From contig JAKAPH010000009.1 of assembly GCA_021807265.1 (NCBI GenBank), positions 1 to 32,528 of the forward strand: a stretch of 32,528 bases of DNA. Reading direction: 5' to 3'. The translations under genes were made by a program, and so were the position numbers. The DNA is from Actinomycetes bacterium. GTDB taxonomy: Bacteria > Actinomycetota > Acidimicrobiia > Acidimicrobiales > RAAP-2. Within the stretch, counting starts at the first letter, position 1. Each line of letters opens with the position of its first letter. The notes beneath the pieces were generated by a model, which was not told where the DNA came from, searched no databases, and saw nothing but the letters and a program-made list of their open reading frames with translations. Below, piece by piece: positions 8,221-31,345 of the stretch.

Positions 8221-8226
8221 TAGCGT
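8221..8226 (+). promoter_or_regulatory. -10 element of leaderless murT-gatD operon
   Basis: TAGCGT followed by 6 nt and the murT ATG at 8233. This spacing puts the transcription start at or next to the ATG. No -35 box was seen. Confidence 0.5.
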
Positions 8227-8232
8227 GAGTGC

Positions 8233-9444
8233 ATGGCTTGGTGGCGCGCAGTTCGACTACGAGTTGCGGCGTCAGCGGTGCGCGCGGTCAATTGGGTCTC
8301 GCAACGCAGTGGCCGCGGCAGCGGGACGGTGATTGGGGGGACAGTCGGGCTCTTGCTCGCACCCCACTTGCTCGCCTCGCTGGCTGAGGATCGGCGCGTC
8401 ATCCTCGTGACCGGGACGAACGGCAAGACCACGACGACCGCGCTCGTTGTCGCGGGCTGGGATGGCGACGTCGCCTCCAATGACACCGGCGCCAACATGC
8501 CCGCTGGCCACGTGGCGGCGCTCGTGCGCAGCGGTGCGTCGCGCGTGGTCCTCGAGACCGACGAGGCGTGGCTGGGGGCGAGCGTGGAGGCGACGCGGCC
8601 GGCGGTCATCGTGGTGCTCAATCTGTCGCGAGACCAGCTCGACCGCGCGAGCGAGGTGCGTCAGATGGCCGAACGGTGGCGCGCTGTCTTTGCCACGGCG
8701 CAAGCGCAGGACGCCGTGATCGTTGCCAACGCCTTGGACCCCCTGGTCGTCTACGCCGCGAGCGAGGCGAGGAACGTCCGCTGGTGCGCGACACCCACGG
8801 CGTGGACGGCCGACACGATGTCGTGCCCGCGGTGCACGGAGCCACTGATACGTACCGCCGAGCGGTGGTGGTGTGGGTGTGGACTCGCCCAGCCGACTAC
8901 TGACTCGTACCTCGACGGCGACGACGCCGTTATCGGGTCGGCGCGCGTCGCGATATCGCTCGCGCTACCGGGTGCCTTCAACCGGGGCAATGCGTTGATG
9001 GCGCTGACGGCGCTACATGAAGTCGGCGTCGACCTCGACCGGGCGGCATTGCGCCTGACGTCGGTGGGTGAGGTGGCCGGACGCTACGGACTGCGCCGCA
9101 TCGACGGTCAGGTCGTGCGGCTGTTGCTCGCGAAGAACCCCGCTGGTTTCGCGGCGATGTTCGAGGGATTGGGCGGCGGCGACGAGGTCTGGGTCTCGAT
9201 CAACGCGCGGGTGGCCGACGGTCACGATCCGTCGTGGTTGTACGACGTGCCCTTCGAACAATTGCGCGGCCGGCGCGTGCGCTGTCTGGGCGATCGGCGG
9301 CTCGACGTGGCCACGCGGCTCTGGTACGCCGGCGTGGCCGCACACGTGGATGACGGCCCGCCGGTGGTTCAGGACCGGGTCGTTGACGTGATCGCGAACT
9401 ACACCGCCTTCAGTGATCTGCTCAAGGAGTCACAGCCGTGCTGA
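8233..9444 (+). CDS. murT: Lipid II isoglutaminyl synthase subunit MurT
   Basis: A Mur-ligase-like subunit of 403 residues which, with GatD, amidates the alpha-carboxyl of D-glutamate in the lipid II stem peptide using ATP and glutamine-derived ammonia. Marks include the P-loop VTGTNGKTTTT near residue 60, SNDTGANMPAGH, ETDEAWL, LNLSRDQLDR, and a zinc ribbon inserted in the middle domain (Cys198-x2-Cys201 and Cys214-x-Cys216), as in known MurT proteins. The C-terminal DUF1727 domain shows LLLAKNPAGF. The ATG is 6 nt behind TAGCGT. The stop overlaps gatD by 7 nt, so both subunits are made together. Confidence 0.93.
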   Translation: MAWWRAVRLRVAASAVRAVNWVSQRSGRGSGTVIGGTVGLLLAPHLLASLAEDRRVILVTGTNGKTTTTALVVAGWDGDVASNDTGANMPAGHVAALVRSGASRVVLETDEAWLGASVEATRPAVIVVLNLSRDQLDRASEVRQMAERWRAVFATAQAQDAVIVANALDPLVVYAASEARNVRWCATPTAWTADTMSCPRCTEPLIRTAERWWCGCGLAQPTTDSYLDGDDAVIGSARVAISLALPGAFNRGNALMALTALHEVGVDLDRAALRLTSVGEVAGRYGLRRIDGQVVRLLLAKNPAGFAAMFEGLGGGDEVWVSINARVADGHDPSWLYDVPFEQLRGRRVRCLGDRRLDVATRLWYAGVAAHVDDGPPVVQDRVVDVIANYTAFSDLLKESQPC

Positions 9445-10130
9445 GGATCGTGCAGGTGTATCCCGAGCTCCTGGGCACGTACGGCGACGGCGGTAACGGG
9501 CTCGTGCTCCGCGAACGCGCGCGGCACCGGGGCATCGAGGTCGAACTCGTTCGCGCGAGCATGGACGCCGACCTTCCCGACGGCGACCTCTTCCTGTTGG
9601 GCGGTGGCGAAGACGGCCCCCAGCGGCTCGCGGTCAGCCTGCTCGCGAAGGCTGGATTCTCGCGCCGGGTGGACGACGGCGCAATGGTCTTCGCGGTCTG
9701 TGCCGGCCTGCAGATGCTCGGGACGAGCTTCAGCGTGCAGGGCGATGACCGGTACGAGGGACTCGGGCTGGTGGACGCGGTAACCACGCGCGCGCGGACC
9801 CGTGCCGTTGGCGACCTGGCGACGACGGTCGACGGGGTCCTCATGGTGGGATTTGAGAACCACGGCGGCGAGACGAGGATCGGCCCGGGAGTCACGCCCT
9901 TCGCCACGGTGGTCCGCGGTCGGGGCAACGACGGGCTCGTCGACGGGTTTCGAGTCGGACGGGTGTGGGCGACCTACGCCCACGGCCCGGTGCTCGCCCT
10001 CAATCCGTGGCTCGCCGATGCCGTGCTGAGCGAAGCGCTGGGAGGCTGGGATCTCGCGCCGCTCGAGACGGTGGCCGACCGCCTCTACGACTCGCGCTGC
10101 CGTGCGCTTAGGACTCGGTCGGCCGATTGA
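9438..10130 (+). CDS. gatD: Lipid II isoglutaminyl synthase glutaminase subunit GatD
   Basis: A class I glutamine amidotransferase-like subunit of 230 residues that delivers ammonia to MurT. The nucleophile is Cys88 in AVCAGLQMLG and the catalytic histidine is His182 in TYAHGPVL; GFENHGG is also typical of GatD. There is no third-triad glutamate motif, as expected for the CobB/CobQ-like group. Translation starts at GTG 9438 inside the end of murT. The 3' end overlaps the convergent acyltransferase by 23 bp. Confidence 0.93.
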   Translation: MLRIVQVYPELLGTYGDGGNGLVLRERARHRGIEVELVRASMDADLPDGDLFLLGGGEDGPQRLAVSLLAKAGFSRRVDDGAMVFAVCAGLQMLGTSFSVQGDDRYEGLGLVDAVTTRARTRAVGDLATTVDGVLMVGFENHGGETRIGPGVTPFATVVRGRGNDGLVDGFRVGRVWATYAHGPVLALNPWLADAVLSEALGGWDLAPLETVADRLYDSRCRALRTRSAD

Positions 10131-11662: not shown

Positions 11663-12976
11663 TCATCGGACCACGATCGAGCCGAGCACCCGCCAGTTCG
11701 GCTTGCCGGCGTAGAGAAGGGCTCGGACGCGGTAGTTCTCGAAGTTCCGGAACCCGAAGCCGATCCGCTTGATCCGTTTGATGAGGTTGTTGAGGCTCTC
11801 GGTCGGACCGTTGGTGATCCTAGCTAGGTGGAAGTTGCAGAGCTTGGCGAACCAGGTGCGGATCGTCTTGCCAAGTCGGCGGATCTCGGGTGGCATGGCC
11901 TTGTGCAGACAGCGGTCGCGCAGGTCAGCGAGGATCGCTTCGGCGACAACGGGATCGCTCTCGCGGTAGAAGTCGCGCAGGCGCTCTTTGACCCGGTAGG
12001 CAATGGCGACCTCGGCCGTGGGGTCGCCTAGCTCGAGCAGGGACGCAAGTCGCGCGGCGGCCTCGTCGCTGAGCCTCTCCTCGCCGCGCAGCAGCAGCCG
12101 CCTTGCGCGGTAGAGGGGGTCGTCTTTGCGCCCGCGGTGCCCGAGCTGCTCGATCTGCACGCGCCGACGGATCGCGTCAAGGGCCCGGTTGGCGAGCGCG
12201 ACCGCGTGGAAGGGGTCCACGACCTGGGCCGCTGCCGGCAGCATCGCCGAATAGACCGCGGCGTAGGTGGGCGACATGTCTAACGCCCCGTAGGTGATGC
12301 GCGAGCGCCAGTCGAGTCCCTGGTCGGCCACCCACTTCGCAACCTCGACGAAGTGCCGGGTGGGCAAGATGTCGATGATCTGGTGGTTCGCGACGTCGCA
12401 CACCGTCGTGGCGTAGCTCGTGCGCTGCTCGACGCGGCGAACGAAGTTGGTCTCGTCGAGCCCGATCGCCGTGGTCTTGGTGAGCCGCTTCGTGTCGGCC
12501 TCTAAGAGCGCGGTGCCGTAGGTGAGAACGGCGTCGTTGATCGTGTGCCACTCACAGCCGAGCTCCCTGGCGACTTCCTTCACCGAGCGGCCCGTGCCCA
12601 CCTGCTCGGTCGCCCACTTGGCCGCCCGGGTCGTGAGCAGGCAGCTCTTGGCCGCGATCCGGTGGTCGGCCAGCACCCAGCTCTTTCTCGCGCAGTTCGG
12701 GTTGCCACAGCGCAGGCGGTGCTTCTTCCAGGTGAGGTGCATGGGCGCACCAAAGACGGGCAGGTCGACGTAGGTGACAAGCGGTCGCTCCTTCACCCGG
12801 GCGAGCGCCCCGCAGCTGGGGCAGCGGATCTCGGCGAGGACCTGCTCGATTACGAGCGAGACGTCGGGCCCGTGACGCTGGTAGGCGAGCACGCGGACGT
12901 CTTTGAGCCCCACCAGGGCCTGGACGATCTCGCTAGGGTCAGTGATGACGAAGGTGCTTCTGGATTGTTGGCTCAC
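11663..12976 (-). CDS. tnp: ISL3-family transposase
   Basis: A DDE transposase of 437 residues. An N-terminal zinc-binding region has CPSCG (about 52-56) and CGNPNCARK (about 90-98), followed by a helix-turn-helix (GRSVKEVARELGCEWHTI). The catalytic core shows GLDETNF, DMSPTYAA and VVDPFHAV, and the C-terminal NGPTESLNNLIKRIKR motif with GFGFRNFENY is diagnostic of ISL3. Length is normal and the frame is unbroken, so the element may still move. The start is GTG 12976. A small hairpin (CCTCA-AGCC-TGAGG) lies just upstream of the start and could limit translation. Confidence 0.93.
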   Translation of the reverse strand: MSQQSRSTFVITDPSEIVQALVGLKDVRVLAYQRHGPDVSLVIEQVLAEIRCPSCGALARVKERPLVTYVDLPVFGAPMHLTWKKHRLRCGNPNCARKSWVLADHRIAAKSCLLTTRAAKWATEQVGTGRSVKEVARELGCEWHTINDAVLTYGTALLEADTKRLTKTTAIGLDETNFVRRVEQRTSYATTVCDVANHQIIDILPTRHFVEVAKWVADQGLDWRSRITYGALDMSPTYAAVYSAMLPAAAQVVDPFHAVALANRALDAIRRRVQIEQLGHRGRKDDPLYRARRLLLRGEERLSDEAAARLASLLELGDPTAEVAIAYRVKERLRDFYRESDPVVAEAILADLRDRCLHKAMPPEIRRLGKTIRTWFAKLCNFHLARITNGPTESLNNLIKRIKRIGFGFRNFENYRVRALLYAGKPNWRVLGSIVVR

Positions 12977-13031
12977 ACCTCAAGCCTGAGGCACCTTCGT
13001 CCTTCATGCAAGCACCACCACGGCGGGCGTC

Positions 13032-25431: not shown

Positions 25432-25455
25432 ATGATCCGGGGGATCAATGTTTGA
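25432..25455 (+). other. Short ORF (MIRGINV) overlapping the pgsA start
   Basis: ATG at leaderless distance from TAGAAT, seven codons, TGA at 25453-25455. It runs across the pgsA ATG (25448) in another frame. Whether it is translated is unknown. Confidence 0.3.
25433..25447 (+). promoter_or_regulatory. Hairpin abutting the pgsA start codon
   Basis: TGATCC-GGG-GGATCA is a perfect 6-bp stem with a 3-nt loop, ending at the base before the pgsA ATG. It would hide the G-run that is the only ribosome-binding candidate. Confidence 0.4.
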
Positions 25456-26113
25456 TGGCAACTTCCGTAAGTCGGTCGACACCACCACGGCGCCCGTGGG
25501 TCAGTGGCTCGTCCGCCGCGGCGTCTCCGCGGACGTCCTCACGGGCTCGGGACTCGTCTTCGCCGCACTCACGGCGTGGTCGATCGGCGTCGGCTACCAC
25601 TACCTCGCGATCGTGCTGCTCACCCTCACGGGTTTCCACGACATGCTCGACGGTGCCGTCGCGAAGGCGTCGCACCGGGCGAGCCAGCGGGGGAGCTTCT
25701 TCGACTCGGTGATCGATCGCGTGTCCGACGCGTTGCTCATGGGCGGCGTCGCGTACTACTTGACCGCGCACGGTCACGGCCAGCTCGTCCTGCTGCCCTT
25801 TGCCATCATGACTACAACGTTCCTGATCTCCTACCAGCGCTCCAAGGCCGAGAGTCTCGGCCTGAGCGCCAAGGGCGGGCTCATGGAGCGCGCCGAGCGG
25901 ATGATCTTGCTCGGCGTGGCGCTGCTCGCGAACCAGATCTTCCTCCCGGTCCTGTGGCTGATGCTGGCGCTCACCGCCATGACCGCCGGCGGCCGGTTCC
26001 TGCGGGTCTGGCGCGTCGCCGCGCGGCCCGAGCCGATGCAGCGCCCCGTCACCCGCCCGCACCGAAATGTCGGTCGGACGAGGCGGGCACTGACACGCGC
26101 GTCGCGTCATTGA
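25448..26113 (+). CDS. pgsA: CDP-alcohol phosphatidyltransferase, PgsA1 (phosphatidylinositol phosphate synthase-like)
   Basis: A 221-residue membrane enzyme with about six helices that transfers a phosphatidyl group from CDP-diacylglycerol to an inositol-type acceptor. The CDP-alcohol motif is D65-x2-D68-G69-x2-A72-K73-x8-G82-x3-D86-x3-D90; all four aspartates are present, but the usual arginine after alanine is lysine. In mycobacteria the gene at this place makes phosphatidylinositol phosphate, the base lipid of PIMs, and the acyltransferase and mannosyltransferase follow here as well. The basic C-terminal tail is longer than usual. Confidence 0.87.
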   Translation: MFDGNFRKSVDTTTAPVGQWLVRRGVSADVLTGSGLVFAALTAWSIGVGYHYLAIVLLTLTGFHDMLDGAVAKASHRASQRGSFFDSVIDRVSDALLMGGVAYYLTAHGHGQLVLLPFAIMTTTFLISYQRSKAESLGLSAKGGLMERAERMILLGVALLANQIFLPVLWLMLALTAMTAGGRFLRVWRVAARPEPMQRPVTRPHRNVGRTRRALTRASRH

Positions 26114-26115
26114 CC

Positions 26116-26994
26116 GTGGCCGGGCGCGCGCGCGTCGCGGTCTTCCGTTCCTTGGGCGCACTGATCGAGCGAGTGCCCGACTCCGTGGCGGTCTCGATCG
26201 GTCGTCGCGTCGCAAGTTCCCTGCGGTTGCCCGCAGCGCGGCGCAACCTCGCCGCGAATCTCGCGCACGCACTGGGTGAACCGGCCGACGTGCCCGAGGC
26301 GCTCGTCGAGCGCTTCGTCGGGCGCGCCCTCGCGAGCTACGGGCAGTACTGGGCCGAGGGTGCGAAACTCCCGGCGCTGCCGGCAACGACCATCTCGGAC
26401 CGGTTTCAGATCGTCGAGGGTCGCGGCTACCTCGATGCGGCCCACGACGCCGGCGCCGGCGTGGTGGTGGCGCTGCCGCACGTGGGCAGTTGGGAGTGGG
26501 GCGGCGCGTTCCTCGCCCAGATCGGCATGCCGATGACCGCGGTCGCCGAGGCGCTCGAGCCACCCGCGCTCTTCGACTGGTTCAAGGCCAAGCGCGAAAG
26601 CATCGGCATCACCATCGAGCCGCTCGACGCGCACGCGGGCACCGTGCTGCTCGACACCTTGCGTCGCGGCGGCGTGGTGGGGCTGCTCTGTGATCGTGAC
26701 CTCGTGGGCAACGGCATCCCCGTCGACTTCTTCGGCGAGCGCGTCACGCTGCCCGCCGGGCCGGCGACGCTCGCGCTGCGCACGGGCGCGACGCTCGTCG
26801 CCGCGGCCTGCTACGCCGGACCGGGCCGCGACCACTACGCGGTCGTCACGCCACCGATCCCCGCCGAGCGGCTCGGCCGGCTGCGCGACGACGTGGCGCG
26901 CGTCACCCAAGCGATCGCGGTCGAACTCGAGGGGCTCATCCGTCGGGCCCCCGAACAGTGGCACGTCCTGCAGCCGCGATTCGATCAGCCGTGA
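26116..26994 (+). CDS. PIM acyltransferase (PatA-like, LpxL/HtrB family)
   Basis: A membrane-bound acyltransferase of about 292 residues. The catalytic H-x4-E motif is visible as His122-VGSW-Glu127 in ALPHVGSWEWG; further marks are VAEALEPPALFDWFKAKR and LCDRDLVGNGIPVDFFGE. Lying between pgsA and pimA, as Rv2611c does in M. tuberculosis, it probably acylates the mannose of PIM1 or PIM2. The start is uncertain: GTG 26116 lies 2 nt after the pgsA stop, TTG 26110 overlaps it. It ends in a GTGA overlap with pimA. Confidence 0.86.
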   Translation: MAGRARVAVFRSLGALIERVPDSVAVSIGRRVASSLRLPAARRNLAANLAHALGEPADVPEALVERFVGRALASYGQYWAEGAKLPALPATTISDRFQIVEGRGYLDAAHDAGAGVVVALPHVGSWEWGGAFLAQIGMPMTAVAEALEPPALFDWFKAKRESIGITIEPLDAHAGTVLLDTLRRGGVVGLLCDRDLVGNGIPVDFFGERVTLPAGPATLALRTGATLVAAACYAGPGRDHYAVVTPPIPAERLGRLRDDVARVTQAIAVELEGLIRRAPEQWHVLQPRFDQP

Positions 26995-28094
26995 CGCGCC
27001 CGTCGGTGGTGCTCGTCAGCCCTTACGCGCTGAGCGTCTTTGGCGGCGTGCAGGAGCAGGCGCTGGCGATGAGCCGCGAGCTCGCCCGGCGCGACTACGA
27101 CGTCGACCTGATCGTGCCCGATTCGGCTGATCGGCGCGACTACGACACTCCCGCGCGCATCCACCGGTTCGGCCGGCTGCTCTCGCTACCGGCGAACGGC
27201 TCTCGCGCCCCGCTCACGCTCTCGCCACTCGCCGCGCGCGAGGCGGCCGCGCTGATCGCGCGACGCGCCCCGGACGTCGTGCACTACCACGAGCCCTTCG
27301 CGCCCCTGCTCGGCTGGGCGGCGCTGCGCGCGCACGCGGCCGCGTCGGTCGCGACGCTGCACCGAAGCGGCGACGGGCCGGCGACGAGACTGACGCGACC
27401 GCTGCTGCGCGCCCTCGCGCGCCACGTCGACGTGAGCGTTGCCGTGAGCCCCGCGGCCGCGGCGACCATGGGGCAGGCGGCCGGGCTCGTGCCCGACGTC
27501 CTGTTCAACGGCTTCGAGGTGGATCGATTCGTGGCTTTTGCCCGCGACGCGCCCGCAATCACCACGGTGCTCGTCGTGGGACGGCTCGAGGAACGCAAGG
27601 GCGTTCGCTTTGCTATCGAGGCCATGCGGCAGCACAACGCGCGCGCCGACTCGCCGTGGCGACTCGTGATACTGGGCGACGGGCCCGAGCGCGCTCGGCT
27701 CGAAGCGCTGGCGGCGGGACTCGACTGTGAGTTCCTCGGGTCGCCGAGTGACGACGAGAAGCGGCGCTGGCTGCGTCGGGCATCGGTCGTAGTCGCGCCC
27801 GCGCTGCGCGGCGAGAGCTTCGGTCTCGTGCTGCTCGAGGCGATGGCGAGCGAGACCCCGCTGGTGGCGAGTGACATCGATGGCTACCGCGAGGCGGCCG
27901 GCGGGCACGCCGTCATGGTGGCACCCGGGGACGCCGCCGCGATTGAGGCGGGCGTCACGCGCGCGCTCGAGCGCGGCGTCGACGTGATCGATGGCGCCCG
28001 GGCCCACGCGACGGCGTGGTCGATGAGTCGACTGATGGACGCCTACGAGGAGCGCTACGAGCTGGCTCAACGACGATTCGGGGGCGCACGGTAG
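26991..28094 (+). CDS. pimA: Phosphatidylinositol mannosyltransferase PimA (GT4 family)
   Basis: A GT-B glycosyltransferase of 367 residues that transfers mannose from GDP-mannose to phosphatidylinositol on the inner face of the membrane. The N-terminal domain opens VVLVSPYALSVFGGVQEQAL; VHYHEPFAP and VSPAA follow. The C-terminal domain has VVGRLEERKG, ILGDGPER and the GDP-mannose motif GESFGLVLLEAMASETPLV. These align well with mycobacterial PimA and gene order supports it. GTG 26991 overlaps the previous stop as GTGA. Confidence 0.87.
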   Translation: MTRPSVVLVSPYALSVFGGVQEQALAMSRELARRDYDVDLIVPDSADRRDYDTPARIHRFGRLLSLPANGSRAPLTLSPLAAREAAALIARRAPDVVHYHEPFAPLLGWAALRAHAAASVATLHRSGDGPATRLTRPLLRALARHVDVSVAVSPAAAATMGQAAGLVPDVLFNGFEVDRFVAFARDAPAITTVLVVGRLEERKGVRFAIEAMRQHNARADSPWRLVILGDGPERARLEALAAGLDCEFLGSPSDDEKRRWLRRASVVVAPALRGESFGLVLLEAMASETPLVASDIDGYREAAGGHAVMVAPGDAAAIEAGVTRALERGVDVIDGARAHATAWSMSRLMDAYEERYELAQRRFGGAR

Positions 28095-28097
28095 CCT
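28092..28097 (+). promoter_or_regulatory. -10 element of the M48-like gene
   Basis: TAGCCT followed by 6 nt and ATG 28104, directly after the pimA stop; predicted leaderless. Confidence 0.45.
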
Positions 28098-28103
28098 AGG
28101 ACC

Positions 28104-29003
28104 ATGGCCACGAAGCAAAAGTCGCGTAACCGGCGTCCCTCGACGCGTGATCGCGGACCGCGCTACGTCGAGCCCGTACTCGATCCCACCTGGCAGAGTC
28201 CCTACCTGCCGTCGGCCGAGGAGCGCGAGGCCAACGGCGACGCCGTTCGCCGGTACGGCTGGCGCCGGCGGGTCCCGGTGACCATCGCGGTGGCCGTGCT
28301 CGTCGTGGCGCTACTCGTTGGCGCCATGGTCTCGATCTGGCTGCCCGTGCTCGGCGTGGTGATCGGCGTTCTCTACGGCTTTGAGCTGTACCACTCGTTC
28401 GGTCGCCTGGACCGGCTCGGCACGGGCGCCGGTGAGAGCATCGCGCGCCTCGTTGGCGAAGGGGGCAGCGCGCATGACCGCCAGCGTCTCGCCACGGTCG
28501 TAGACCGGCTGAGCGCGACCTTTGGCGTCGATGGCGTGTCGGCCGTGATCATCGATGACGAGGGGTACAACGCGGCCCTGATGCGCCGCGGCGGCGGGCT
28601 CGCGCTCTACGTGACCAGTTCGCTGCTGCGCGACTTCGAACTGATCGAGCTCGAAGGCGTGGTCGCGCACTGCCTCGCGCGCCAGCGACTCGGCCTGGTG
28701 GAGCGCCAGTGCATCGCGGCCTCGGTGTCACTCGATGACGCCACGCGACGCTCGCTCGCCGGCATCGGGCAGTGCTACCGGGCCGACGAGGTCGCCGCGG
28801 CCGCCATCCGCTACCCCCTGGGACTCGCGAACGCCCTGCACCGCTGCGCTGATCAGGTAACGCCGCCGGGCTCGTATTTCGTGTCGCCGGCCTTTTCGAC
28901 GACGCGCTGGTCCTGGTTCAACCCCTTCGCCGACCGCTCGACGAGCGATCTCAGCGACCTCGACGACCCGCTGCTGCGCTCGCTCGCCCTCGAAGAGTGG
29001 TGA
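28104..29003 (+). CDS. M48 (HtpX-like) membrane protein with degenerate zinc site
   Basis: A 299-residue protein with a basic N-terminus, one or two transmembrane helices at about 58-95 and a cytoplasmic domain resembling M48 peptidases: LATVVDRLSATFGV, then DEGYNAALMRRGGGLALYVTSSLL, then IELEGVVAHCLARQRLG. In active enzymes the last segment holds HExxH; here it is His189-Cys190-Leu-Ala-Arg193, so the catalytic glutamate and second zinc histidine are gone. It is probably a pseudopeptidase with a binding or scaffolding role. It sits between the PIM and vitamin B6 genes with its own -10 box. Family assignment is by motif pattern and moderately sure. Confidence 0.65.
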   Translation: MATKQKSRNRRPSTRDRGPRYVEPVLDPTWQSPYLPSAEEREANGDAVRRYGWRRRVPVTIAVAVLVVALLVGAMVSIWLPVLGVVIGVLYGFELYHSFGRLDRLGTGAGESIARLVGEGGSAHDRQRLATVVDRLSATFGVDGVSAVIIDDEGYNAALMRRGGGLALYVTSSLLRDFELIELEGVVAHCLARQRLGLVERQCIAASVSLDDATRRSLAGIGQCYRADEVAAAAIRYPLGLANALHRCADQVTPPGSYFVSPAFSTTRWSWFNPFADRSTSDLSDLDDPLLRSLALEEW

Positions 29004-29013
29004 GTGCGCCCGG

Positions 29014-29019
29014 TAGGCT
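29014..29019 (+). promoter_or_regulatory. -10 element of leaderless pdxS
   Basis: TAGGCT followed by 6 nt and the pdxS ATG at 29026. Confidence 0.5.
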
Positions 29020-29025
29020 AGGGGC

Positions 29026-29922
29026 ATGACACTTTTATCTGACAGTTCGGTCGTCGGTTCAGCTCGCGTGAAGCGGGGCTTGGCGGACATGCTGCGCGGC
29101 GGGGTGATTATGGACGTGGTCAACCCCGAGCAGGCCAAGGTCGCCGAGGACGCGGGCGCGGTCGCGGTCATGGCGCTCGAGCGCGTGCCGTCGGACATTC
29201 GTCGTGACGGCGGCGTCGCGCGGATGAGCGACCCGCAGATGATCCAGGAGATCCAGGCCACGGTCACGATCCCGGTGATGGCCAAGGCCCGCATCGGCCA
29301 CTTCGCCGAGGCCCAGATCCTCCAGGCGCTCGACGTCGACTACATCGACGAGTCCGAGGTCCTCACGCCCGCCGACGAGGACAACCACATCGACAAGTGG
29401 GGCTTCACGGTTCCCTTCGTGTGCGGGGCCACCAACCTCGGCGAGGCGCTGCGGCGCATCGGCGAGGGCGCCTGCCTGATCCGCTCCAAGGGCGAGGCGG
29501 GCACGGGCAACGTCGTCGAGGCCGTGCGGCACCTGCGCACCATCAACGCCCAGATGCGCCGACTGACCTCGGCCGACGAGGCCGAGATCTACCGGCTCGC
29601 CAAGGACCTGCAGGCCCCGCTGCCTCTCGTGCTCGAAGTCGCGGCCACGGGTGCGCTCCCGGTGCCGATGTTCTGCGCGGGCGGCATCTCCACGCCGGCC
29701 GACGCGTCACTCGTCATGCAGCTCGGCGCCCAGGCGGTCTTCGTCGGCTCGGGAATCTTCAAGAGCGAGGACCCCGACCGGATGGCGCGGGCCATCGTCG
29801 AGGCGACGACCCACTACCTGGACCCGTCGGTCGTGGCCAAGGTGTCGACGGGCCTCGGTGCGGCCATGCGCGGCGCCGAGATGGCGTCGCTCGAGCAGCG
29901 ACTCGCCGAGCGCGGGTGGTAG
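29026..29922 (+). CDS. pdxS: Pyridoxal 5'-phosphate synthase subunit PdxS
   Basis: The 298-residue synthase subunit condenses ribose 5-phosphate, glyceraldehyde 3-phosphate and ammonia to PLP. The family sequence is nearly textbook: [79 protein letters not shown] and [20 protein letters not shown], including the two catalytic lysines. The ammonia comes from PdxT, whose gene overlaps the stop by 7 nt. The start lies 6 nt after TAGGCT. Confidence 0.97.
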
Positions 29923-30503
29923 CAGCGCCCCTCGGCGTCTTGGCGCTCCAGGGTGACGTGCGCGAGCACGTCGCGGTGCTGGCGGGACTTGACGTCGAGG
30001 TCGTAGCGGTGCGCACCGTAGAGCAGTTGCGCGCGGTGCGTGGCCTGGTGATCCCCGGTGGGGAGTCGACGACAATCGCGAGACTGCTCGAGACCTCGGG
30101 CATGCGCACCCTGCTCGCCGAGCGGCTGCGCGACGGCCTGCCGGTGCTCGGCACCTGCGCGGGGCTGATTCTCCTGAGCCGCTCGGTCGTGGACGGCCGT
30201 GACGACCAGTGGAGCTTCGCCACGATCGACGTCGACGTGCGCCGCAACGGCTTCGGCCGCCAGATCGCGAGCTTCGAGACCGTGGTCGAGGTCGAGGGCG
30301 TCGGCGAGGTGCCCGGGGTGTTCATCCGCGCACCGAAGATCGAGTCGTGGTCCGAGCAGGTCACCGTGCTCGCGACCCACGACCACGGCACGGGGCGCAC
30401 CCCGGTCCTCGTACGGCAGGGTGCCGCGTGGGGTTGTTCGTTTCACCCCGAGCTCACCGACAGCAGCGCCATCCACGAGCTCTTCCTCGCCTCGTTGTCC
30501 TAG
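29916..30503 (+). CDS. pdxT: Pyridoxal 5'-phosphate synthase glutaminase subunit PdxT
   Basis: A 195-residue class I glutaminase that forms a complex with PdxS. Motifs are [21 protein letters not shown], the nucleophile Cys81 in [14 protein letters not shown], and His177 with Glu179 in SFHPELT; the triad is complete. The start is GTG 29916, inside the last codons of pdxS; there is no separate ribosome-binding site, so translation is coupled. Confidence 0.95.
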
Positions 30504-30595: not shown

Positions 30596-31345
30596 ATGTC
30601 CGGCCATTCGAAGTGGGCGACGACCAAACACCGCAAGGGCGCCAAGGACAGCGCCCGCGCCAAAGTCTTCGCCAAGTTGATCCGTCAGGTGGAGGTCGCG
30701 GCCCGCGAAGGCGGCGGTGACGCCTCGGCCAACGCGAGCCTTCGCACCATGTACCAGAAGGCGCGCGAGGCCTCGGTCCCGATCGACACCATCGAACGCG
30801 CGATCAAGCGCGGCACCGGCGAGCTCGAGGGAGCCCGCTACGAGGCCGTGACCTACGAGGGCTACGCGCCGGGTGGCATCGCGGTCATCGTCGAGACCCT
30901 CACGGACAACCGAAACCGCACGAGCGCCGAGATCAAGCACCTGTTCTCCAAAAACGGGGGCTCGATCGCCGAGCCCGGCGCGGTGTCCTGGCAGTTCGAC
31001 CGCAAGGGCATCATCGAGGTGAAGGGCCCCATCGACGAGGACCAGATGCTCGAGTGGGTCCTCGAGGCCGGGGGCGAGAACTTCACGGCCACGGCGGACA
31101 CCGTGTCGGTGACGACCGAGCCCCAGGACGTCGGGCGGGTTCGTGACGCGCTCGAGGGTTTCGGGGTGACGGTCACGAGCGCCGATCTGACCCTGGTGCC
31201 ACAGACGATGATCGAGGTCGCCGAGGAATCCGAGGCGAAGAAGATCCTTCGACTTGTCGACGCCATCGACGATCACGACGACGTCCAGAACGTCTACGCC
31301 AACTTCGATATCCCCGACGAGATCCTGGCGACCTTCGAGGAATAA
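30596..31345 (+). CDS. yebC: YebC/PmpR family protein
   Basis: A 249-residue member of the YebC/TACO1 family, conserved in bacteria as a DNA-binding regulator or a ribosome-associated translation factor. The start SGHSKWATTKHRKGAKDSAR is diagnostic, followed by NASLRTMYQKARE, YEGYAPGG, TDNRNRTSAEIKHLFSKNGG and a C-terminal DVQNVYANFDIPDE. Length is normal. It has a good ribosome site (GGAGG) before ATG 30596. In many bacteria, as here, it lies just upstream of ruvC-ruvA-ruvB; a separate promoter precedes ruvC. Confidence 0.95.
   Translation: MSGHSKWATTKHRKGAKDSARAKVFAKLIRQVEVAAREGGGDASANASLRTMYQKAREASVPIDTIERAIKRGTGELEGARYEAVTYEGYAPGGIAVIVETLTDNRNRTSAEIKHLFSKNGGSIAEPGAVSWQFDRKGIIEVKGPIDEDQMLEWVLEAGGENFTATADTVSVTTEPQDVGRVRDALEGFGVTVTSADLTLVPQTMIEVAEESEAKKILRLVDAIDDHDDVQNVYANFDIPDEILATFEE

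Follow-up and report, generated by a model that had tools for sequence, protein, structure and literature searches.

Does a peptidase gene whose zinc-binding motif has been overwritten still encode something useful, or is it simply wasting away? The question is raised by an open reading frame (gene X) in a 32,528-nucleotide stretch of DNA, hereafter the window, from the genome of a soil actinobacterium, in which X lies between lipid-sugar and vitamin B6 genes. The original prediction, made from the sequence alone, described an M48-like protein with HExxH replaced by HCxxR and took it to be probably a kept pseudopeptidase. We conclude, with a probability of roughly 0.8, that X is an HtpX-type M48 orthologue which has lost its zinc site and catalytic glutamate, has kept its fold, membrane hairpin and genomic position, and most likely works without cutting.

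An M48 protein with an altered zinc site

The frame begins with ATG and runs for 299 codons with no internal stop, and is thus as intact as had been claimed. Codons 189, 190 and 193 (CAC, TGC and CGC) encode His, Cys and Arg, such that the HExxH of active M48 enzymes is indeed missing and reads HCLAR; the flanking segments quoted in support of the family call are also present and line up with their counterparts in intact M48 orthologues. The HExxH motif, the zinc-ligating glutamate and the HPx4R active-site plug of M48 peptidases have been described (PMC7950410). Two losses that the original prediction did not include accompany the altered motif: Cys224 stands at the position of the third zinc ligand (the Glu of ExxxD), and the HP of the HPx4R plug is gone, its Arg being retained. 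The second of these is not decisive, because the plug is also absent from the examined intact copies of the window's own family. In all, three of the four zinc and catalytic residues are lost from the sequence. Members of the HtpX subfamily have two membrane hairpins, both of which are visible as hydrophobic segments in the copy L036, whereas the window protein has only the N-terminal one, with 34 residues between the second-His position and the Asp as opposed to about 80 in the long form. The features of the gene are as follows.

28104-29003 (+): pseudo-M48 (HtpX-type) gene, 299 aa, assigned by fold and profile evidence
28167-28205 (+): genus-specific N-terminal motif, residues 22-34, VEPVLDPTWQSPY, from the LDPxWxx[PA]Y comparison
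28263-28394 (+): hydrophobic stretch, residues 54-97, probable transmembrane hairpin (model helices 38-75 and 79-107)
28668-28682 (+): H-C-L-A-R at the HExxH position, residues 189-193, from sequence and alignment
28773-28790 (+): residues 224-229, with C224 (zinc Glu position), D228 and E229, from alignment
28977-28979 (+): R292, Arg of the former HPx4R plug, from alignment

The N-terminal motif, LDPxWxx[PA]Y (around LDPTWxxPY), lies ahead of the hairpin; 76 of the 79 copies from the window's genus have it and none of 155 others does. It is possibly a docking peptide.

Membership of M48 is not apparent from the single sequence. A Pfam search with it gave no M48 match up to an E-value of 10, a PDB sequence search gave unrelated matches only (E above 1), and the best match to the NCBIfam HtpX models (1.3e-5, 24.5 bits) fell below their cut-off of 341. 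The Pfam miss is explained by the divergence of the single sequence, and one consequence is that a Pfam M48 search overlooks such copies, finding only an HtpX paralogue in the window's genome. Comparison of profiles does recover the homology to M48/HtpX: 20 genus members match 15 intact orthologues with 99.4% probability (E 1.1e-21), and a profile built from 64 relatives, some of them intact, reaches the HtpX domain structure 3cqb at 2.8e-7. The AlphaFold model of the window protein (mean pLDDT 89.5) is likewise predicted to have an M48 fold. Foldseek returned two matches under E 0.001, namely ZMPSTE24 and the M48 peptidase 3c37, and a second structural aligner ranked M48 structures at the top (3c37, Z = 11.9; BepA, 11.8; ZMPSTE24, 11.4; these span 141-155 residues at 2.9-3.7 Å), followed by Ste24p (11.2), BlaR1 (about 9), the HtpX domain (8.1 over 95 residues) and other zincins such as ERAP1 (under 6.2). 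The checks that had been proposed for the family call therefore gave an M48 fold with M48 proteins as best structural matches, and a divided outcome for the profile search, positive between profiles and negative for single-sequence Pfam. On the strength of the predicted model and the sequence profiles, the protein belongs to the M48 family and the earlier call is right.

Retention of gene X in its genus

The order of genes in this part of the window is threonyl-tRNA synthetase, HIT protein, CDP-alcohol phosphatidyltransferase, acyltransferase, pimA-like, X, pdxS, pdxT, yebC and ruvC, with X lying 9 bases after the pimA-like glycosyltransferase gene and 22 before pdxS, as expected from the predicted location between PIM and PLP genes.

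25436-26113 (+): CDP-alcohol phosphatidyltransferase (pgsA-like), open frame, start not fixed
26104-26994 (+): lipid A acyltransferase-family gene, start approximate
26958-28094 (+): glycosyltransferase (pimA-like), true start may lie further in
28092-28097 (+): TAGCCT, -10-like hexamer, leaderless-type promoter candidate, starting 12 bases before the ATG of X
29014-29019 (+): TAGGCT, matching -10-like hexamer, starting 12 bases before pdxS
29026-29922 (+): pdxS
29934-30503 (+): pdxT, stretch used as query, start not fixed
30596-31345 (+): yebC/TACO1 family

Elsewhere in the window there is an ISL3-family transposase gene (11663-12979, -) and, at 8224-10130 (+), a MurT-like ligase gene followed by one for a CobB/CobQ-like glutamine amidotransferase (GatD-like by position), which are probably a peptidoglycan amidation pair.

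The promoter that had been ascribed to X stands in part. No sigma-70 type site was found upstream of the gene; there is, however, a conserved candidate of leaderless type, since TANNNT starts exactly 12 bases before X in 68 of the 70 readable genus copies (9 of 79, with no start codon within 8 codons of the preceding stop, were dropped), although part of this conservation has another cause, the TAG being the pimA stop codon. Before pdxS, TANNNT occurs at 12 bases in 56 of 65 readable genus copies and at 13 in 6. The two hexamers look like leaderless promoters inside a tightly packed cluster.

The arrangement acyltransferase-pimA-X-pdxS-pdxT-yebC is common to the genus and to other families of the order (Acidimicrobiales, judging from the relatives that carry names), and by this synteny X is a true, vertically inherited orthologue of the peptidase found in the same slot elsewhere. 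When 61 near genomes, some of them from other families, were searched, 53 had a match. Across the 99 searched genomes of the window's genus (g1), 92 have a long match, two have fragments (G008 and G015) and five, all drafts, have none (G022, G024, G406, G418 and G424). One genus copy (G015:C129:7784-8208) extends over two reading frames at a contig end and is either a broken gene or an assembly error. For the wider comparison the protein was extracted from 300 loci and aligned to one profile; 279 of these loci have pdxS or pimA on the same strand, and 234 copies were left after removal of near-identical ones, 79 of them assigned to the genus by code or, for L051-L104, by similarity (41-85% identity).

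Within the genus the altered site is fixed. All 79 copies retain the first His, with the proviso that some came from a search with peptide patterns favouring it, and all have Arg in place of the second. The catalytic position is never Glu (Cys in 65, Leu in 12, Gly and Val in one each), nor is the third zinc ligand (Ala 45, Thr 20, Cys 5, Ser 4, Leu 3, Ile 1, Val 1). The dead motif is likewise present in every one of the 59 copies that were read from the 92 and had been located purely by genome search. The original prediction had asked whether the Cys and Arg are fixed in orthologues: the Arg is, and the loss of Glu is universal, but the Cys is not. It had also taken intact HExxH orthologues as the mark of a local mutation; these do exist in other genera, but a local mutation is not the explanation, because the change is genus-wide and under purifying selection. 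Among 52 genus pairs the 14 closest, which overlap and hence are not independent, have a dN/dS (Nei-Gojobori) of about 0.05-0.23, close to the 0.07-0.27 found for intact slot copies (14 of 78 pairs). In 8 of the 10 pairs that allowed the comparison the ratio is lower for X than for pimA from the same genomes, and in all 14 it is lower for pdxS than for X. Decay or a recent local change, which the intact orthologues and the split G015 copy might be taken to favour, is hardly credible in the face of a genus-fixed motif, these dN/dS values, the conserved -10-like element and the lack of internal stops in the other listed genus copies. Fixation of the dead motif together with purifying selection supports the view that X is a kept pseudopeptidase, as had been proposed.

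Descent from an active form and repeated loss across the order

Of the 155 distinct slot copies from beyond the genus, 109 are intact, retaining both HExxH and the zinc Glu. In the copies read from the window's own family the intact genera are g26, g172-g175, g177, g178, g180-g183 and g189; the non-intact ones are g1, g188, g176 and g27, together with g179 and g185, which are altered differently. A FastTree phylogeny of the flanking genes (acyltransferase, pimA, pdxS and pdxT) was built from 176 loci, 22 drawn from the 79 of the genus and 154 from the 155 outside it. It places g1, g188, g176 and g27 in one clade (support 93; 81 in a second flanking-gene tree of 55 chosen rows) which adjoins the intact g26 and g175 (support 100). 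Both these sister genera and the intact syntenic orthologues are presumably active, and on this basis the pseudopeptidase descends from an active enzyme.

The tips inside this clade look like successive steps of loss. L176 keeps HELAH and has changed only its zinc Glu, to Leu; in L161 and L162 (HGLAH) and L173, L174 and L182 (HLLAH) the catalytic Glu is lost as well, again with Leu for the zinc Glu; and in L166, L168 and L170 (HLLAR with variation in its first three letters, zinc Glu to Leu), in L171 (HLLAQ) and in all of g1 the second His has also gone. A Glu directly after Asp228 further marks the lineage, being present in 59 of 59 copies of g1, 2 of 2 of g27, 2 of 2 of g188 and 5 of 6 of g176; among 40 intact copies from the window's family it occurs just once. 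In g179, the close copies L198, L203 and L205 read QELVH, with the first His alone changed, and are possibly early pseudopeptidases or weak zinc binders.

Loss of the active site is not confined to this clade. In total, 125 of 234 distinct copies are not fully intact; 46 of these are from outside the genus, three of them altered at the zinc Glu alone. The 298 genomes searched across the order (30 given loci and 60 fetched regions were read from this search, plus loci from other searches) are a non-random sample from which the better-scoring matches were listed, so altered copies are probably undercounted. The flanking-gene tree requires 20 changes between intact and non-intact states and contains 21 maximal non-intact clades, which pooling across branches with support below 70, 80, 90, 95 or 99 reduces to 19, 17, 16, 15 or 6; the 55-row maximum-likelihood tree requires 16 changes. 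The slot has therefore lost its active site repeatedly within the order, about 15-21 times, or 6 at the strictest support cut, a count which depends on the tree of flanking genes and the support demanded.

A single ancient loss spread into the slot by gene transfer would fit the recurrence of Arg at the second His, but is improbable: a single clade of all 26 altered rows is rejected on the 55-row tree (p-AU 1e-44, for a clade picked after the data were seen and under a simple model), dead and intact copies coexist within the single families f3, f14 and f16, and the dead motifs differ by lineage (HCxxR, HLxxR, HHxxR, RExxR, QLxxR, ALxxR, HExxR, QExxH and WLxxQ). As a control, another M48 gene was read in 20 genomes (10 from the genus and 10 from elsewhere in the order), and HExxH and ExxAD were found in 20 of 20, a set picked as strong Pfam matches, which favours intact genes.

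Several individual copies are of separate interest. L121 (HELSR, with the long spacing of the second hairpin) and L273 (HELAR) keep the catalytic and zinc Glu and have changed the second His alone to Arg, possibly as early stages of loss. In L252 and L248 HExxH is intact and a His or an Asp, either of which might bind zinc instead, stands where the zinc Glu was. All seven copies read from f35, g37 (L276, L281, L282, L286, L289, L295 and L296) have AHHLCR with the zinc Glu changed to Gly or Ser; in this dead lineage the gene evolves faster than pimA (dN/dS 0.15-0.26 versus 0.07-0.12 in the pairs shown).

The losses share a number of features. The second His, when lost, gives way to Arg in 16 maximal clades and to Gln in 4, never to anything else, and the Asp of ExxxD (D228) is kept in 234 of 234 distinct copies. 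The second membrane hairpin was scored as a spacing of at least 70 residues from the second-His position to the Asp. By this measure 48 of the 109 intact copies have it, as opposed to 1 of the 122 in which a His or the catalytic Glu has changed; of the 3 copies whose sole alteration is at the zinc Glu, 1 has it. Losses are almost confined to copies without this hairpin. Over 14 independent pairs on supported branches, an average of 6.2 differ in the expected direction and 0.1 against it, the remainder showing no difference (median p 0.03, range 0.008-0.22).

Other candidate triggers fared less well. Where both pimA and pdxS are in view, lemA accompanies 34 of 84 intact copies, none of them from the family of the window, 7 of 109 dead copies, and 2 of the 3 in which just the zinc Glu is altered. 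Its loss was not significant as a trigger: 3.1 of 11 independent pairs went the expected way and 0 the opposite way (median p 0.25). Neither was loss of the HPx4R plug (4.0 pairs for and 0.7 against, of 14; median p 0.25), and the motif is still present in 14 of 125 altered copies. Long open frames in g188 had hinted at a fusion of PimA with X, an idea that was discarded when the upstream part proved to be an out-of-frame reading.

Taken further, the slot may be a hot spot at which an HtpX-type peptidase has turned into a metal-free scaffold some 15-21 times (at least 6) by a common route with Arg (or Gln) in place of zinc, a reading that we put forward tentatively and at somewhat below even odds. 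The second membrane hairpin would be lost first and the zinc site afterwards; the second His would become only Arg (or Gln), and a positive side chain facing the invariant Asp would take over the charge and structural role of the metal. If so, the protein always had an important non-proteolytic job separable from catalysis.

What the retained protein may do

With zinc ligands and general base missing, M48 chemistry leads us to expect no peptide cleavage, and the product of X is probably free of zinc and unable to hydrolyse peptides. It retains the M48 shell, one membrane hairpin, His189, Asp228 and Arg292, and has gained Arg193 and, in this lineage, Glu229. At the former metal site His189, Asp228, Arg193 and Glu229 probably join the two active-site helices through charge pairs, such as Arg193 with Asp228 or Glu229, that would replace zinc. 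The His-Asp part of this arrangement cannot be universal, because the first His has also been lost in several other dead lineages (AQQLTR, ARELAR, AALLSR). The retained shell and hairpin and the N-terminal motif fit a membrane-anchored binding protein, and a zinc-free scaffold or adaptor at the membrane is its most likely role: the shell would bind partners or former substrates as scaffold, adaptor or holdase. Position weakly suggests a link to the PIM lipid or envelope enzymes. Proteolysis itself could be supplied by an intact HtpX paralogue, which is encoded elsewhere in the same genome and in 10 of 10 genus genomes read; by position and analogy, the PIM enzymes and this paralogue are the candidate partners.

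The most serious competitor of a general scaffold or adaptor is that X encodes an inactive partner which presents substrates to the HtpX paralogue or FtsH, or shields them from it. The presence of the paralogue in every genus genome read is in keeping with this, and pseudoenzymes sometimes regulate active cousins or scaffold complexes, according to one review (PMC11266112), but gene X and the paralogue are not neighbours, and we regard such a partnership as unlikely. Continued metal binding through new ligands such as H189, C190, C224, D228 and E229 is far less probable: the window copy does have two Cys residues in its site, but no more than 5 of the 79 genus copies have Cys224, with A, T, S, L, I or V taking its place in the rest. 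Slightly more doubtful again is a new thiol hydrolase or thiol switch built from Cys190, His189 and Asp228. His189 and Asp228 are invariant in the genus and Cys190 is the majority residue, but a catalytic nucleophile would not vary as position 190 does, both among the other 14 genus copies and in the sister genera g27, g176 and g188, which have Leu, Gly or Glu. A scaffold or adaptor that does not cut thus remains our preferred reading.

Comparison with known systems places X close to HtpX, including the Vibrio HtpX domain 3cqb, with which it shares the M48 fold, the N-terminal hairpin, ELEGVVAH, the Asp of ExxxD and the terminal Arg, and from which it differs in having no HExxH, zinc Glu, HP of HPx4R or second hairpin. 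The LemA-HtpX-type pairs of other Acidimicrobiales families occupy the same slot with an orthologous M48 gene, but have intact HELSH or HELAH, the second hairpin and lemA. A search for lemA in the window genome (82% complete) found none. Four of 37 genus genomes, the window's included in the 37, have lemA (G009:C102, G017:C22, G028:C51 and G029:C20), in each case beside another full-length Pfam M48 match and away from the X slot.

Well-studied pseudopeptidases are few and mostly eukaryotic. FtsHi of chloroplasts (PMC11266112) and the iRhoms are similarly inactive and retained relatives of membrane proteases, in families other than M48 (M41 and rhomboid, respectively). The E. coli M48 protein BepA combines protease and chaperone activities (PMC7950410) and so, in sharing the M48 domain with X, offers a precedent for a job besides cutting; unlike the product of X it is periplasmic (PMC8423444), has a TPR domain and has a complete zinc site. 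The text of the pseudoprotease review PMC11266112 contains no occurrence of M48, HtpX or Ste24. At the level of titles and abstracts, in mostly non-subscription papers, no inactive M48/HtpX protein was found, and the M48 passages of two papers containing both "non-peptidase homolog" and "M48" describe none. The suspected bacterial pseudoprotease CD1597 (PMC11460543) is another kind of case, because it retains HEXXH.

A single syntenic locus in close relatives thus holds the living enzyme, half-dead intermediates and dead forms, with the outcome repeated. It amounts to a natural experiment in the conversion of a protease into a scaffold, and bears on whether M48 membrane proteases conceal a non-catalytic role and whether arginine can replace zinc in a zincin core.
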